A stretch of DNA of 26,338 nucleotides from a virus, in IMG/VR virus record IMGVR_UViG_3300030102_003982, positions 1 through 26,338 of that record, one strand, 5' to 3'. The position numbers were made by a program, and so were the translations under genes. Below, in pieces: positions 1,469 through 24,658 of the stretch. The notes under the pieces were generated by a model, which saw only the letters and a program-made list of their open reading frames with translations, had not been told where the DNA came from and ran no database searches. Numbering within the stretch: the first letter of the stretch is position 1; each line of letters opens with the position of its first letter.

Positions 1469-1537
1469 CTTAATCTCCTTATCGGTATGATGGTGTTTAA
1501 TGATTTCGCACCGTGCTACTCTCATGTTTATTTATCC

Positions 1538-2950: not shown

Positions 2951-3162
2951 CCCTTTTTTTCAAGTAAATGCTCTTTTATATCTAGCACTTTTTCATTCTC
3001 AATTATCTCAATAATAAGATTAGTTAGGTCAATCTCTTTCTTGACGAAAAACATCTTGCGTTGTAGTTCTTCTAATTGTTTTGCGTAATACTCAAGCTCT
3101 TTTTCTTTTCGTACCTTAGTTTCTAAAACCTCGGTGAGTAAGATAATTTTCTTTTCGGTCAT
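2923..3162 (-). CDS. Small coiled-coil protein after DNA polymerase
   Basis: This 79-residue protein is almost entirely charged helix (Lys/Glu/Leu/Ile heptads over residues 5-70), so it is probably a coiled coil. There is no membrane segment or enzyme motif. Its ATG overlaps the gp43 stop as ATGA, so it is translationally coupled to the polymerase and shares its early promoter. A role as a polymerase accessory protein would be a guess from position; I do not recognise a family. Confidence 0.7.
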   Translation of the reverse strand: MTEKKIILLTEVLETKVRKEKELEYYAKQLEELQRKMFFVKKEIDLTNLIIEIIENEKVLDIKEHLLEKKGVQSDKNEI

Positions 3163-7738: not shown

Positions 7739-7968
7739 TTGTAATACTCCCTCAATGTTTTATCGTTAAGAATCGCTAAGATACCTGCGTAGTCTTCATG
7801 CGGATACTCATGCTTAAGCAAGTGTGCGAGCTTTTGATTAGCTTCAATCTGTCTTGAAACCATCACTGCTCTTCCGACTGAAGATAAGTGGCCAGTCATC
7901 CATGCAAACAGTGTTGCGATGAATCCTGTTTTAAGAAGCGAGTAGCTCCTGAGTGCTAGTGCTGTCAT
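7735..7968 (-). CDS. Small protein with hydrophobic N-terminus, 77 residues
   Basis: The start at 7968 is supported by GAGGG six bases upstream and lies inside the end of hsp20 (38-base overlap). Residues 10-28 are hydrophobic (LLKTGFIATLFAWMTGHL) and may form one membrane segment or an amphipathic helix. The rest is a helical domain with Arg/His and a C-terminal LNDKTLREYYK. The pattern 'EYPHE...ILAILND' suggests a small conserved phage family, but I cannot name it. It is coupled to the next gene by ATGA. Confidence 0.65.
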   Translation of the reverse strand: MTALALRSYSLLKTGFIATLFAWMTGHLSSVGRAVMVSRQIEANQKLAHLLKHEYPHEDYAGILAILNDKTLREYYK

Positions 7969-8392
7969 TTTTTCCCTCGTTAGATGAAATTTGAATCTTA
8001 CGAGGCAGCTTTTCTTCCGGAAGGACGACTTCTAAATTGACAGTCAAGATACCGTCCGTTAGATCTGCTCCAGTTACTTCCGTATATTCGGACAGTCTAA
8101 ATGACTTTTTCCAGTTACGAGCACTAATACCTTTATGAACATACATGTTTTGCTCACGACGCTGTGGTCGATTACCACTGATAGTTAAGATATGATCTTT
8201 GACTTCAATGTCAATATGTTCTTGTTTAAATCCAGCCACAGCGATCTCAAGAGTGTATTTCAACTCTTCGTCTTTCACTACGTTATGTGGTGGATAGGTA
8301 TCCTTCGCGTGGCTGTGAATATTGTCCAGCTGATCGAAGATGTGGTCGAAACCAAGAAATGCGTTTCGCGGAAATGCGAATGTTCCAGTCAT
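7931..8392 (-). CDS. Small heat-shock protein Hsp20 (alpha-crystallin type)
   Basis: This ATP-independent holdase chaperone of 153 residues has a short N-terminal arm, an alpha-crystallin beta-sandwich from about residue 37, and the classical GADLTDGILTVNL strand motif. The IQI motif near the C-terminus is the IxI tail that drives oligomer assembly. Hsp20 is a common gene in marine T4-like phages and may protect virion or replication proteins. The start is the ATG at 8392 with GGAGG upstream; a TTG at 8404 lies within the ribosome site. It stands between RegA and polymerase, as in cyanophage genomes. Confidence 0.95.
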   Translation of the reverse strand: MTGTFAFPRNAFLGFDHIFDQLDNIHSHAKDTYPPHNVVKDEELKYTLEIAVAGFKQEHIDIEVKDHILTISGNRPQRREQNMYVHKGISARNWKKSFRLSEYTEVTGADLTDGILTVNLEVVLPEEKLPRKIQISSNEGKNDSTSTQELLAS

Positions 8393-8422
8393 ATTTGCCT
8401 CCAATTAAGCAAGGTTAAATTT

Positions 8423-10720: not shown

Positions 10721-11398
10721 TTAAACTCCAAATGTCGAAGATTTTTCAAGTGCAATCCAGTATTTCACGTCTAGACTTTTATGGCTGAATTGCGTGATCA
10801 GTTTTGAAGAAATTTCTACCTCGTAATCACCAGGTAGAATTTTCAAGTTGTTTGTGCTTAGGATAAAATTAAACGTGGCATCAGCTGGAAATTCACCATC
10901 AACATCGATAGAGAAAGCATTTGATGTCATGTTTTGAGAGTCAACCACAGAAAGACTAAGCACACCATCACTACCACAAATAGAAATTTCACTATGGCCA
11001 AGAGTCGATGCAGCGCGCTTTAGCTTATTCATCGTATCATTGTCTAAAGTAAACTTCACATTTGCTTCTGGCATAGTGATGTCTTTTTGTGGTGTTGTCA
11101 AAGTATCTTCGGATGAATAGAAGTACTTGACTTTAGAGCGACCCGTTGAATCGTTGACAACCACGTAATCGTCTTCAAACTTAAGACGTGGTGCGTCAAC
11201 AAGACCAAGGACACCCATAAATTCGTTGAGATCGTAGATGCCAAAATCAATTGGAAACTCTTCGGTCACATTGGCTCGAGCAAGAACCGTACGTGCTTCA
11301 GAGATTGTTTTGATTGTGTTGCCGCTACGAATCATCATATTTGGATTAATACCTGAAAAGTTTTTCAGGGTGGTTAGAGTATTTTCACTGAGTTCCAT
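10721..11398 (-). CDS. 45: Sliding clamp (gp45)
   Basis: The T4-type processivity clamp forms a trimeric ring that tethers gp43 to DNA and, with gp55, activates late promoters. The protein has 225 residues (T4: 228). N-terminal TLTTLKNFSGINPNMMI and the repeated beta-strand pattern match the family. The start is at 11398 behind GGAG; an ATG at 11413 lies upstream of that site. It has its own early promoter at 11427-11455, within the end of the zinc-ribbon gene. Confidence 0.97.
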   Translation of the reverse strand: MELSENTLTTLKNFSGINPNMMIRSGNTIKTISEARTVLARANVTEEFPIDFGIYDLNEFMGVLGLVDAPRLKFEDDYVVVNDSTGRSKVKYFYSSEDTLTTPQKDITMPEANVKFTLDNDTMNKLKRAASTLGHSEISICGSDGVLSLSVVDSQNMTSNAFSIDVDGEFPADATFNFILSTNNLKILPGDYEVEISSKLITQFSHKSLDVKYWIALEKSSTFGV

Positions 11399-11426
11399 TA
11401 TATATCTCCGCATTTAAACTAGGTAT

Positions 11427-14365: not shown

Positions 14366-14517
14366 TTAAAAAAACTCCATACACAATATATGTAGAACGC
14401 GGCAATCGTAGCTAGTATTGAACCTACGGTAAAGACTTCAATACTATCGTATGTTCTATAAAAATTCAGATAAGTCTGAGTCAGCCGAGATAGTACGCTT
14501 TTTTCTTTTCTTTTCAA
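14362..14517 (-). CDS. Candidate small membrane protein overlapping gp55
   Basis: A 51-residue frame begins with TTG at 14517, ten bases after AAGGAG, inside the end of gp55 in a different frame, and ends in a TGA that overlaps the gp47 start. After a basic N-terminus it contains SIEVFTVGSILATIAAFYIY, a clear transmembrane helix. TTG initiation is precedented by gp47 next door. Without this frame the 90 bases between gp55 and gp47 would be non-coding in an otherwise tightly packed operon. The start codon is the weakest point; the membrane segment and the coupling are the evidence. Confidence 0.5.
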   Translation of the reverse strand: MKRKEKSVLSRLTQTYLNFYRTYDSIEVFTVGSILATIAAFYIYCVWSFFN

Positions 14518-15046
14518 TTTTACTTAACTCCTTCACTTCAGTATCAACAAACTTGACCCGATCGATTCTGGTCTTGAGTGTATCAACAAACATTTCCGCC
14601 ACTAAACCTGATTGTTCATCCCCGTGTTCGTTAACCATAAAGTCTTCGATACCAGAGTTGGCGATATATTTCATCTTAATATCTTGTTGCTTCTTTTCTT
14701 TAGCGATACGTCTTAGGAAAGCATACCACGTAATCTGTGTAAAGTAAGCAAAAGCGTTTGGTTTACCGGTTCGAGTAGCAGCTTCAATATCGTAATTGTT
14801 GATAGCCTTCAAACAATTTTCTACTGCATCCATTACCATTTCTTCGCGATATGTATAACGAATAAAGTTAGCCTTGTGTGATAAGCCTTCAGCGATACGT
14901 AAGAAACATTGTGCTACGTAGTTAGGTACCTTTGGAATCGTCGTGCTTTTCTTTTTTGCATCATTTACGACGGTAACATAATCGACGACTGCTTGTGAGA
15001 AGTCAGCATTGTTAACGTAATGAATGCTTTTTTTCTTTTGACGCAT
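14456..15046 (-). CDS. 55: Late-transcription sigma factor gp55
   Basis: gp55 is a minimal sigma that directs host RNA polymerase to TATAAATA late promoters, activated by the gp45 clamp through gp33. The protein has 196 residues (T4: 185). It shows the sigma region-2-like core with YREEMVMDAVENCLKAINNYD and AFAYFTQITWYAFLRRIAKEKKQ, the most conserved part of the family. The C-terminus ends in SDLSEFL, an acidic-hydrophobic tail like the clamp-binding tail of T4 gp55. It lies directly behind an early promoter, AGGAG precedes the ATG, and late-type TATAAATA elements occur in this same window. Confidence 0.95.
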   Translation of the reverse strand: MRQKKKSIHYVNNADFSQAVVDYVTVVNDAKKKSTTIPKVPNYVAQCFLRIAEGLSHKANFIRYTYREEMVMDAVENCLKAINNYDIEAATRTGKPNAFAYFTQITWYAFLRRIAKEKKQQDIKMKYIANSGIEDFMVNEHGDEQSGLVAEMFVDTLKTRIDRVKFVDTEVKELSKIEKKRKKRTISADSDLSEFL

Positions 15047-15072: not shown

Positions 15073-15101
15073 ATTATATCACGTGAGGCTGCATATGTAA
15101 A
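15073..15101 (-). promoter_or_regulatory. Early sigma70-like promoter P5 (gp55)
   Basis: The minus strand shows TTTACA (15101-15096), 17 bases, then TATAAT (15078-15073), leading to gp55 and the coupled gp47, gp46 and zinc-ribbon genes. Confidence 0.85.
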
Positions 15102-15136: not shown

Positions 15137-15165
15137 TGTACAAACCGTGCATTGTGTGGTATAAT
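15137..15165 (+). promoter_or_regulatory. Plus-strand early-type promoter facing the Ate1-like gene
   Basis: The plus strand shows TGTACA (15137-15142), 17 bases, then TATAAT (15160-15165), as good as the gene-serving promoters. The sequence TGTACAAACCG is shared with the gp45 promoter. Transcription would start near 15172 and run antisense into the 3' end of the gene at 15169-15927. No plus-strand gene with a credible ribosome site follows. Confidence 0.7.
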
Positions 15166-15168
15166 AAA

Positions 15169-15927
15169 TTAAGGTATTTGGGGAGAGGGATATACTCGAT
15201 AGAAATCTTTATGTCTGTGGTACAAATCATCCAAAGTTTCTACGTTACTATCTTTTGCGAGTAAATCTTTAAACATGTCTTTATCACTACTCCACCCGCG
15301 GCCGGTCCACCATTCGAATCCATTATAAAAAGATTTGTATTCGCATACTTTTTCATAGGCGTAAGATGAATAGTAATACTTGTAGTCTAGTTCTTTGTAT
15401 GTCATGCATTCAAAGTTCTGCGCGAATATTCCAAGACCTAATTTAGGATTTTCATAATCCCACGCGAACTCGCCCGCCACGACACTCCAATTATATCTTG
15501 TTAGATTAGTGTAAGCAATTACCTTATCGTTATGCCAGTATACGAAATAATCTTTGTCACCATACTCCTTGTCAATTAAACCTGCGTCATGGTGATCATC
15601 ATAGCCTCTATAATCACAATATTTTTTGAATACTTCATCGCATTCTTTCTGCCACGGGTTTGTGTCTCGGTAGTGTTTACCTGTTACACCTGTATTTAGG
15701 TATCTTTTATGCTTACGTTTTACCTTGAAGTTAGGTAGACTAATACGCGTAGTTCTCGCTTGAATCCATAGTTGCTTATCTGTCACGTAAAAAAAGGCGT
15801 CCATCGGCGTCCAACCTAAGTCTAACGCTTCATCTTCTTCACCAGGTTCAACCTCAGCTAATGCTAATCCATAAACGATGTCATACTTGGTGGTGTTACC
15901 ATAGATATGATCGTAGAATATTTTCAC
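15169..15927 (-). CDS. Aminoacyl-tRNA-protein transferase (Ate1/Bpt)-like protein
   Basis: This 252-residue, Tyr/Trp-rich protein follows the layout of arginyl/leucyl-tRNA-protein transferases. EALDLGWT (33-40) is followed by RISLPNFKVKRKHKRYL (61-77), which parallels 'RISVPDF..SRSQKRLL' of bacterial Bpt. A GNAT-like half has KVIAYTNLTRY (135-145), LGLGIFAQNFECM (163-175) and YYYSSYAYEKVCEYKSFY (184-201), paralleling 'LSLGTLAVL...YLGYQIDDCPAMNYK'. The N-terminal Cys pair of Ate1/Bpt is absent. Such enzymes add an amino acid to protein N-termini and mark them for ClpS/ClpAP degradation. Whether this one is active is inference. It overlaps its upstream neighbour by ATGA. Confidence 0.6.
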   Translation of the reverse strand: MKIFYDHIYGNTTKYDIVYGLALAEVEPGEEDEALDLGWTPMDAFFYVTDKQLWIQARTTRISLPNFKVKRKHKRYLNTGVTGKHYRDTNPWQKECDEVFKKYCDYRGYDDHHDAGLIDKEYGDKDYFVYWHNDKVIAYTNLTRYNWSVVAGEFAWDYENPKLGLGIFAQNFECMTYKELDYKYYYSSYAYEKVCEYKSFYNGFEWWTGRGWSSDKDMFKDLLAKDSNVETLDDLYHRHKDFYRVYPSPQIP

Positions 15928-16655
15928 TCTATCGGTGTCTCATCTATATCAATCTTACTTTTATTTCCATGTTTCTGGTGTATAGGACCAATCGGCGTTT
16001 CTTCAACATTAAACACGTCAGATCCGGTTTGTTCCCATTGAGTAAAGTAACTATCATCCGTGATAGTATCCTCACGTGTATTTTCAACGGTATAAAAATT
16101 TTGGTCGATAAGATAACCTGGATTACCAGTTAGTCGTTCTTCCATAAACGCGTCATCGTACCATATCGTTCTATTGTTAGGATAAGCAAAGAAGTTACCG
16201 TCGTCCATTCTAAACATGTGTGCACATTTATGTTCAGGGTCTTCACTAAAGTTTGTATCTAACATAGCGGCCTTGTCTTCCCATCCAAAGTCGATTGTAA
16301 ACATATAGGTGCCTTTTCTTTTTTCACCATGCCAATCAACAAGTTCTGCTCGGCAGTTGGCTAACCGGTTTCTTCGATTTACGTTAACGTACGAACTAAA
16401 ACAATCCCAGTACATATGAATATTTAGTGGATACTGTGGTGCGTCTCTTTTCCATACAAAAGCATTAATAGGTCTTCGAGTCCAGTTCACTCCATTAGGT
16501 AGTAAACATTCAAATAATATCGCTCTACGTTCCATACAATTAACCGTATGGATGTCTGCAAATGTAAATTCGCCATGCCCTTTGGTGTGATTGTATAAGT
16601 ACTCGTTTCGTATGTAAGCGCTAAAAGGTGGTATGTTGTGATTTAAGTATGGCAT
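15924..16655 (-). CDS. Conserved-looking hypothetical protein, 243 residues
   Basis: I do not recognise a domain. The protein is rich in Trp, Tyr, Asn and Asp, with probable beta strands (RRAILFECLLPNGVNW, GTYMFTIDFGWED) and an acidic tail. It has no membrane segment or signal peptide. It is coupled by TAATG to the Sm-like gene upstream and by ATGA to the Ate1-like gene downstream. Its aromatic composition resembles that of its downstream neighbour, which suggests that the two form a functional pair; this is inference from context. Confidence 0.7.
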   Translation of the reverse strand: MPYLNHNIPPFSAYIRNEYLYNHTKGHGEFTFADIHTVNCMERRAILFECLLPNGVNWTRRPINAFVWKRDAPQYPLNIHMYWDCFSSYVNVNRRNRLANCRAELVDWHGEKRKGTYMFTIDFGWEDKAAMLDTNFSEDPEHKCAHMFRMDDGNFFAYPNNRTIWYDDAFMEERLTGNPGYLIDQNFYTVENTREDTITDDSYFTQWEQTGSDVFNVEETPIGPIHQKHGNKSKIDIDETPIE

Positions 16656-19035: not shown

Positions 19036-19554
19036 CTATACAAGCTCAAAGATCTGATATCTGAACGAAACAGGGAATGTAATGAACTCTGTTCCACTCG
19101 CAGTCGATTCAAAGTTGATGGCACCAAGGTTCGTAGGCATAGCGCCTTGGTACCGAATGTTCTTTATCTTGTTGTTCATACTATTTAAGATTGTCAACGT
19201 GATATCCGCTGTGGAAGGTATAGTATCAGTTGACGCAGCACTCGCACTATTTCTATCAAGTGCACCCTTCAAAGGCGCATCTATTAATCTTCTTATCCAA
19301 TCATGCATCTCGGTATAAGCTTTCATATCCTCGTCGAGAATAATGTTAGCAGTGAGTTCACCATAGTCTAAAGTACCACCAGGCATTGGAATGCTTCGGA
19401 CTTTTCTAAACTGTAGCTCGCTTGGTACGAGTGTTAAATCAGGATGTTGTACGTTTTGAGCAAAAAACTCTAGGTTCGGGTAGTTTTCCCGATCTATAGT
19501 AAGCTTGTAACCGGTAGGTTGCAAGTAGTTTATGTTTGAAGTTAAAGTAGCCAT
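19036..19554 (-). CDS. Second tail-tube-fold structural protein (gp19-like)
   Basis: This 172-residue protein resembles gp19 in layout. An N-terminal strand pair is followed by FAQNVQHPDLTLVP, then by a PMPGGTLDYGELTANIILDEDMKAYTEM-HDW segment matching gp19's FRGRRLK...FDPWTVTVINDTGFKIRDEMEKWM, and a final beta strand (FPVSFRYQIFELV). T4 has tube-fold relatives at the tail ends (gp48, gp54); this may be an initiator, terminator or connector tube ring. The gene sits after gp23 behind its own perfect late promoter, with only 5 bases from TATAAATA to the ATG and no ribosome site. Confidence 0.65.
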   Translation of the reverse strand: MATLTSNINYLQPTGYKLTIDRENYPNLEFFAQNVQHPDLTLVPSELQFRKVRSIPMPGGTLDYGELTANIILDEDMKAYTEMHDWIRRLIDAPLKGALDRNSASAASTDTIPSTADITLTILNSMNNKIKNIRYQGAMPTNLGAINFESTASGTEFITFPVSFRYQIFELV

Positions 19555-19559
19555 AAGTG

Positions 19560-19567
19560 TATTTATA
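19560..19567 (-). promoter_or_regulatory. Late promoter TATAAATA before the tube-like gene
   Basis: A perfect T4 late element lies on the minus strand. By the T4 rule (element at -13 to -6) the first transcribed base is the A of the ATG at 19554, so the mRNA would be leaderless. It lies directly after the U-run of the gp23 terminator. Confidence 0.8.
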
Positions 19568-19568
19568 C

Positions 19569-19600
19569 AAAAAAGAAAGGGACCCTCCGAAGAGGATCCC
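19569..19600 (-). terminator. Intrinsic terminator after gp23
   Basis: The minus strand has GGGATCCTC, loop TTCG, GAGGGTCCC (nine pairs, one G-U), then TTTCTTTTTT. The UUCG tetraloop and U-run make this the clearest terminator in the window. Confidence 0.95.
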
Positions 19601-19626: not shown

Positions 19627-20958
19627 TTATGACAGGATATTGTTAACAGCTGAAATGCGATAGTACTGGTTAGTACGATCACTGGCAAGACCGTTTGATG
19701 GTGAAGAACCAACGAATGGGTTTGATACCATTCCGTAACGAGTCTTAAAGCCGATCCGAGGCTGGAAGTCTTCCTCGCCCACTGCCTTGACCATTGTCAA
19801 AGGAACGTATGGGCAGTAGAACAATCCTGCATCGTATGGGTTTGTACCCTTATAACCCACGTTTACGTAGTCACGTGATGAGTAAGGATCGATGTAGACA
19901 CGGATCCGACCGTTCAGAGTACCAGCAAATGTGTTACCAGTATCGTCTACGTTAAGGTTGCTTGACAACGCTGGAGTATAATCCAACATGCCAGCCGCGT
20001 TCAGGGCTGCAGCAACGTCTGATGAACACAGGATAAAGTTACCTTTACCGCGACGTGTTTCTTTAGCGATTGTGTTTGCTTCACGCTCGATCTGCATGAT
20101 CAGGCCTTTGTACTTCTCAACTGACCACCGGCCGTCTGCGTCTGTTGCCAGATCGAAGATACCGAGTGTTTGGTTTGAAGTTTGACGTGAACCGATCTTT
20201 GCTTGGCGGTTGACCGTACGTACAACTTCACGGTTGATTTCAGACAGGATCTCAGTTGACAGAATGTTAGCCAACTCAGTTTCTGCATCCAAACCGTGGA
20301 TTGCTTTCAGGTCTTGTGCCAGTTCGAGAGTGTAGTTAGCGCGTAACGCACGTGAACGTGCTGTCACTGTAGCTTTCTCGATGGTGAAGCCCATTGGAGC
20401 CAGTTCTTCTTGGCTTGTTCCACCCAATACTTCAGCCTCAGCAGCTGTGTATGTGTCACCAACGAACGGTACGTGTGTTGATTCGGAGTCAATGATTGTT
20501 GAGTCATTGTCGCCGTCTAATGTACCAGCCAAACCAGATGGACCAAGCGAACCGTTACCGGATGTTGATGAGTCACCTGAGTAGCCGACTGGAGCTTCGT
20601 TGAACAGAGCTTCGTCGCCGTTTGATACACCAGCTTTTGTCTTCTGGAAGGTTGACTTCATTGCGAAGATCAGACCTGTTGGACCAGTCATTGGCTGAAC
20701 GCCACAGATGTCGTAAGCAACAAGGTTAGGCATTGCGCGACGTACGAGTGCGATCAGAACTGGGTTCCAGTTAGCTGAGTTAGCAGTTACGGTTGTTTCT
20801 TGCAACATGCCTTCTTCTTTGAGGGCATGCTCTTGGTTTTCCAGAACAGCAGCAGTAACTGCCTTCCGGTGCGCGTCTTGAATGGTGCCGGCAGCTTCTG
20901 ACTCAAGTACCGGTGCCCACTTCTCAACGAGCTTATCGTATGAAATTACGTTATGCAT
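19627..20958 (-). CDS. 23: Major capsid protein (gp23)
   Basis: This HK97-fold capsid subunit has 443 residues (T4: 521). The N-terminal delta region (about residues 1-54) would be cut by gp21; MLQE at 51-54 followed by TTVTANSANWNPVLI fits the LxE cleavage rule. Family signatures include LVRRAMPNLVAYDICGVQPMTGPTGLIFAMKS, ANYTLELAQDLKAIHGLDAETELANILSTEI and the C-terminal YCPYVPLTM. ATG at 20958 has AAGGGAG upstream. It lies after gp22 and is closed by a strong terminator. No gp24 vertex gene is present here. Confidence 0.98.
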   Translation of the reverse strand: MHNVISYDKLVEKWAPVLESEAAGTIQDAHRKAVTAAVLENQEHALKEEGMLQETTVTANSANWNPVLIALVRRAMPNLVAYDICGVQPMTGPTGLIFAMKSTFQKTKAGVSNGDEALFNEAPVGYSGDSSTSGNGSLGPSGLAGTLDGDNDSTIIDSESTHVPFVGDTYTAAEAEVLGGTSQEELAPMGFTIEKATVTARSRALRANYTLELAQDLKAIHGLDAETELANILSTEILSEINREVVRTVNRQAKIGSRQTSNQTLGIFDLATDADGRWSVEKYKGLIMQIEREANTIAKETRRGKGNFILCSSDVAAALNAAGMLDYTPALSSNLNVDDTGNTFAGTLNGRIRVYIDPYSSRDYVNVGYKGTNPYDAGLFYCPYVPLTMVKAVGEEDFQPRIGFKTRYGMVSNPFVGSSPSNGLASDRTNQYYRISAVNNILS

Positions 20959-22738: not shown

Positions 22739-22746
22739 TATTTATA
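22739..22746 (-). promoter_or_regulatory. Late promoter TATAAATA before gp21
   Basis: A perfect T4 late element lies in the 56-base gap between the gp67/68-like gene and gp21. Transcription would begin near 22733, giving a leader of about 26 bases that contains the AAAGGTGAG ribosome site. Confidence 0.85.
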
Positions 22747-22763: not shown

Positions 22764-23126
22764 TTAAACGGATTCTTCAGCGTCTTCTTCATCGACCAAA
22801 TCATCATCTTCGCTATCGTCATCGTCCCCTTCATCATCAGAATCTTCCACATCCATATCGTCATCATCCAAGTCTTCAGAATCTTCCATGTCCTCATCTT
22901 CGATTTCATCTTCATCATCCTCCTCAGAAGCGTTGTAGATTGCGTTCGATAAACGAATACGTTCTTGGTCCATTACATCATCTAATTTTACTGAGATAGC
23001 TTGACCAAAGATTTCATTTGCTTTATTATAATCTTTGGCAAGTGCTGCATCGACCAGGTCTGCTAGTGGATTCACTTCTACTTCTGGTTCGTTTTCAGCT
23101 GCATCTACGTAATCTACTTCACTCAT
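22764..23126 (-). CDS. Acidic prohead core protein (gp67/gp68-like)
   Basis: This 120-residue protein has an ordered first half (NPLADLVDAALAKDYNKANE, then FGQAISVKLDDVMDQERIRL) and a C-terminal half made almost wholly of Asp and Glu. T4 has two small core proteins (gp67, gp68) at this place between portal and protease; this single gene probably fills the same role, helping to form the scaffold core. The helical segment looks more like gp68 and the acidity more like gp67, so no number is assigned. It is coupled to gp20 by ATGA. Confidence 0.75.
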   Translation of the reverse strand: MSEVDYVDAAENEPEVEVNPLADLVDAALAKDYNKANEIFGQAISVKLDDVMDQERIRLSNAIYNASEEDDEDEIEDEDMEDSEDLDDDDMDVEDSDDEGDDDDSEDDDLVDEEDAEESV

Positions 23127-24613: not shown

Positions 24614-24646
24614 TTATAATAAGAGGAGAGCGGAGTACCGCTCTCC
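24614..24646 (-). terminator. Intrinsic terminator after gp19
   Basis: The minus strand has GGAGAGCGG, loop TACT, CCGCTCTCC (nine perfect pairs), then TCTTATTATAA. The stem lies 13 bases after the gp19 stop and just before gp20. The U-run is interrupted, so termination may be partial and let some transcripts reach gp20. Confidence 0.75.
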
Positions 24647-24658
24647 CTTTATATATTA

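Follow-up and report, generated by a model that had tools for sequence, protein, structure and literature searches.

Exact spacing between the late promoter box and the start codon suggests leaderless virion-gene messages in T4-like phages

The window analyzed here is the whole 26,338-nt stretch of the IMG/VR virus record IMGVR_UViG_3300030102_003982, and it carries the genes gp19, gp20, gp21, gp22, gp23, gp3, uvsY, and uvsW in this order. The gene under study encodes a gp3-like tail completion or tail-tube-terminator protein of 172 aa (19036-19554, minus strand; phrog_45, E 1.3e-28; cyanophage gp3 by tblastn). It lies behind the gene of the major capsid protein gp23 (19627-20958, minus strand; phrog_138), which is served by the terminator between the two. 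The window also encodes a gp55-type late sigma factor (14456-15046, minus strand; phrog_234, E 2.7e-50) and the gp45 sliding clamp, a co-activator of T4 late transcription (10721-11413, minus strand; phrog_223, E 1.3e-74). Immediately before gp55 lies a sigma-70 promoter of the extended -10 type that is close to consensus (15073-15101, minus strand), with a divergent promoter beside it (15137-15165, plus strand); it is possibly the early promoter of gp55. Furthermore, Hsp20-like (7931-8404) and ferredoxin-like (15924-16655, minus strand) genes lie amid replication genes, and between gp19 and gp20 lies a symmetric hairpin (24624-24647) with a terminator score on each strand. Two open reading frames have no PHROG match: one of 120 aa between gp20 and gp21 (22764-23126, minus strand), and one of 317 aa whose ATG follows GATAAATA (1529-1536, minus strand) after three bases.

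At the junction of gp23 and gp3, the minus strand reads AAACT, GGGATCCTC-TTCG-GAGGGTCCC, TTTCTTTTTT, G, TATAAATA, CACTT, and ATG GCT. The stem-loop GGGATCCTC-TTCG-GAGGGTCCC (19579-19600) is G+C-rich, folds with -17.2 kcal/mol (z -3.47 against shuffles), and is followed by the U-run TTTCTTTTTT (19569-19578), as in an intrinsic terminator. Next comes an exact T4-type late promoter octamer, TATAAATA (19560-19567), then the 5-nt spacer CACTT (19555-19559), whose length is kept in relatives, and the ATG (19552-19554). The direct stacking of U-run, box, five bases, and ATG described in the earlier note is thus present on the minus strand, with one G between the U-run and the box. T4 late boxes occupy positions -13 to -6 (PMC1524935), and by this rule +1 is predicted to fall on the A of the gp3-like ATG. 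With one mismatch allowed, TATAAATA has 47 matches in the window against 46 expected; because the motif occurs at chance frequency, the weight of this site comes from its position and conservation and not from the motif alone. The same phage has a leadered late gene for contrast: in front of gp21, TATAAATA (22739-22746, minus strand) stands 31 nt before the ATG, from which gp21 has 217 aa.

The start codon itself is well defined. No ATG, GTG, or TTG was found between the gp3-like ATG and the in-frame stop upstream of it, the next possible starts inside the gene are a TTG at codon 11 and an ATG at codon 57, and the N-terminus MATLT.N.NYLQPT is common to relatives. Additionally, no usable Shine-Dalgarno (SD) sequence precedes this ATG; the sole GGAGG lies about 30 nt upstream, inside the terminator stem. 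The gene therefore combines an AUG start with the lack of both an SD and an alternative start, as is characteristic of leaderless mRNAs, and the claim that both are missing is borne out.

The earlier note had also proposed that this junction be compared in related phages, and there the exact 5-nt spacing without an SD recurs. Among 47 gp3 loci classified, 20 have the box at exactly 5 nt, 13 are leadered (13-45 nt), 13 are box-less, and 1 has the box at 47 nt. All 20 loci at 5 nt start with ATG and have no SD, while leadered loci usually have one and box-less loci follow close behind the neighboring gene. The terminators of the gp3 relatives diverge, and the box, the spacing, and the ATG are retained. 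Mapped on the gp3 tree, the 5-nt state requires seven changes, at least four of which are forced by the starred branches; in C48C1, the closest cultured relative, gp3 is leadered. In the sister loci L040 and L042 (near position 3000), the hairpin loop, U-run, box, and GATCT are identical, and the two then part by an indel of 18 nt that adjoins the ATG. This indel carries AGGG and falls exactly between the predicted +1 and the gp3 ATG; it amounts to a leader gained or lost between the putative transcription start and the start codon.

To look beyond gp3, we scanned IMG/VR for GTATAAATA-N(1-12)-ATGGC, which gave at least 82 matches in 80 loci. Among the matches listed, spacings of 1 to 12 nt occur 1, 2, 5, 7, 33, 6, 3, 9, 5, 2, 6, and 3 times, that is, 33 of 82 at 5 nt and at most 9 at any other spacing. 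With the scrambled box GTAAATATA, 10 matches fall at 5 nt in a flat distribution, and with a GTGGC start, 4 fall at 5 nt, again without a peak. Since both controls are flat, the peak at 5 nt needs the true box as well as ATG. Similarly, a second scan of IMG/VR with ATATAAATA and ATGAC found 17 matches at 5 nt and no more than 9 at any other spacing. Genes that follow the box at 5 nt encode, among other proteins, gp2 (phrog_429), gp25 (phrog_261), gp3 (phrog_45), a large terminase subunit, and a protein resembling NifU.

The bases around the predicted start are also biased. In sets that pool scan loci, some of them chosen by spacing, a pyrimidine precedes the ATG in 114 of 120 sites at 5 nt versus 185 of 340 leadered starts, and an SD-like word is present in 7 of 120 versus 163 of 340. 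The spacing histogram of these pooled sites is not unbiased, because some loci were chosen by spacing, and counts over whole genomes or contigs are cleaner. In the 340 leadered sites, position box+6 is unlike its neighbors, with A at 0.61 and C at 0.04; this preference for A and avoidance of C fits a +1 at box+6. Collectively, the recurrence of the 5-nt spacing, the lack of an SD, and the box+6 preference support the earlier proposal that transcription would begin on the A of the ATG and give a leaderless mRNA.

The 5-nt spacing is concentrated in certain late genes, each site being assigned to the family of its best hit in a small reference set. It is found in 21 of 27 gp2 sites, in 18 of 34 gp25 sites, and in 25 of 38 gp3 sites, the last share not being a population frequency because the gp3 loci were fetched by gp3. 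Elsewhere it is found in 0 of 12 sites for gp18, 0 of 8 for gp22, 0 of 4 for gp23, 0 of 13 for gp8, 1 of 22 for gp48, and 1 of 14 for gp4. When scan-chosen sites are left out, gp2, gp3, and gp25 stand at 40:18 versus 3:90 for the set of other genes; binomial P values for such counts overstate independence, since homologous genes make up part of the 5-nt sites. The virion proteins gp2, gp3, and gp25 are low-copy. Copy number was nevertheless rejected as a full explanation: no site of the abundant gp18, gp22, or gp23 has the 5-nt spacing, but the low-copy gp8, gp48, and gp4 are nearly all leadered.

Whole genomes of cultured phages contain the same arrangement. Among cultured Pelagibacter phages, HTVC008M has 9 box-led open reading frames at exactly 5 nt, compared with 0 for six permuted boxes pooled, and Mosig has 6, compared with 1. 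The HTVC008M sites coincide with annotated CDS starts (6280, 7562, 19456, 31132, 49760, 18916 on the minus strand, 16007 on the minus strand, 75559, and 142360), and one gene of this phage is annotated as a late promoter transcription factor. For Mosig, the other spacings comprise one at 8 nt and one at 10 nt, the remainder being at least 15 nt, most with an SD. Melnitz-2 and Rhizobium phage RHph_I1_18 have three genes each at 5 nt, and C48C1 and S-SRM01 have one each. Whole-genome box-spacing counts found no 5-nt gene starts in P-RSM4, Syn1, or T4.

The geometry of the junction, the conservation of its spacing, the absence of an SD, and the identity of the genes that carry it are read directly from the DNA. 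On this basis, the junction most probably belongs to a class of T4-type late genes whose messages lack leaders, a class that consists mostly of gp2, gp3, and gp25 and occurs in mainly marine T4-like phages. The gp23 transcript would end at its terminator, and a separate late transcript covering gp3-uvsY-uvsW would start from the TATAAATA box, which gp55 would recognize together with the gp45 clamp. The first nucleotide of this transcript would be the A of the gp3 AUG or lie within one base of it. As there would be no 5' leader, initiation on gp3 would have to proceed without an SD, presumably via 70S ribosomes or IF2/fMet-tRNA on the 5'-terminal AUG, as in other leaderless mRNAs. We infer where transcription starts, that the host translates the message without a leader, and any advantage this brings; start sites can shift a base or two, and read-through of the gp23 terminator could supply a leadered RNA.

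Such read-through might even be the main source of gp3. The box would then be a real late promoter, gp3 would be made mainly from gp23 read-through RNA by SD-independent initiation in an A/U-rich region, and the distance would be incidental. Terminators leak, the gene lacks an SD on either RNA, and in several relatives without a box gp3 is coupled to the upstream gene. However, we consider this reading unlikely, because it leaves unexplained the peak at exactly 5 nt with dips on both sides, the dependence on box and ATG, and the position of the L040/L042 indel exactly between +1 and the ATG. Slightly less likely still is a start 1-3 bases upstream, inside CACTT, which would leave a near-leaderless message with a leader of 1-3 nt. 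Start selection of the T4 type can be ragged, and one base makes little change in sequence, but the pyrimidine at -1 and the fixed A at box+6 fit a start on the A, and leadered sites likewise favor A at box+6. Finally, an AT-rich octamer could happen to lie five bases before an ATG, and the chance frequency of TATAAATA-like words in the window would allow for it. We regard coincidence as very improbable, given that the arrangement is retained as terminators diverge, is seen again in front of gp2, gp25, and further late genes, disappears when the box is scrambled, and is refuted as chance by the scrambled-box and GTG controls.

The 5-nt late-gene class thus suggests that some virion proteins may be made from leaderless messages, unlike in T4, the model of late phage transcription, whose late genes carry leaders. 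If this is true, marine T4-like phages, including SAR11 phages, would translate selected virion proteins without SD pairing, which would bear on virion protein ratios, on how gene starts are predicted in marine phages, and on the reason why some of them carry the ribosomal protein bS21. This protein is encoded in HTVC008M (91237-91392) and Melnitz-2 (35461-35619), both of which have 5-nt late genes, and the HTVC008M bS21 is reported to enter 70S ribosomes in E. coli (PMC9723584). As a general partner of the class, bS21 was rejected: it was detected in only 2 of 25 records searched, and 5-nt phages without a detected copy exist, many of the records being fragments. Any connection of this protein with the leaderless late genes is speculative. 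We hold it doubtful, though conceivable, that the genes form a leaderless late regulon in which the host ribosome is shifted toward such messages late in infection, for example by phage bS21, so that selected virion proteins would be preferred or made in a set ratio relative to host or SD-led messages. In the open-access literature searched, no earlier description of late genes without leaders was found for T4-like phages, subscription literature lying mostly outside this coverage, and a cyanomyovirus review mentions the late motif without leaderless starts (PMC2984593).

Among known systems, the closest are the T4 late promoters, which depend on gp55, gp33, and gp45. The same exact octamer TATAAATA stands before gp3 here, it likewise leads late virion genes, and the window encodes both gp55 and gp45. 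In contrast, the box in T4 precedes the ATG by 13-34 nt, in most cases with an SD, and no T4 gene start was found at 5 nt. A leaderless structural gene would therefore be unusual when set against T4, as the earlier note held, but the junction is not a single oddity; it is one case of a class that recurs in particular genes. T4-like cyanophages (NATAAATA) and HTVC008M have late promoters of the same box family. HTVC008M has its nine starts at 5 nt, whereas S-SRM01 has a single one, and cyanophages were rejected as a model for the class because P-RSM4 and Syn1 have none. Phage AR9 was likewise rejected as a parallel, as its phage 5' UTRs measure 26-491 nt. Moreover, the predicted messages resemble leaderless mRNAs of the lambda cI type in their 5'-terminal AUG, the lack of an SD, and the use of AUG and not GUG; the efficiency of leaderless mRNAs is lowered by non-AUG codons and by distance from the 5' end (review PMC9031893). 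They differ from the lambda cI type in that the 5' end is predicted here and that the genes are not single regulatory genes but late genes for virion proteins, from several families, in a lytic T4-type phage.
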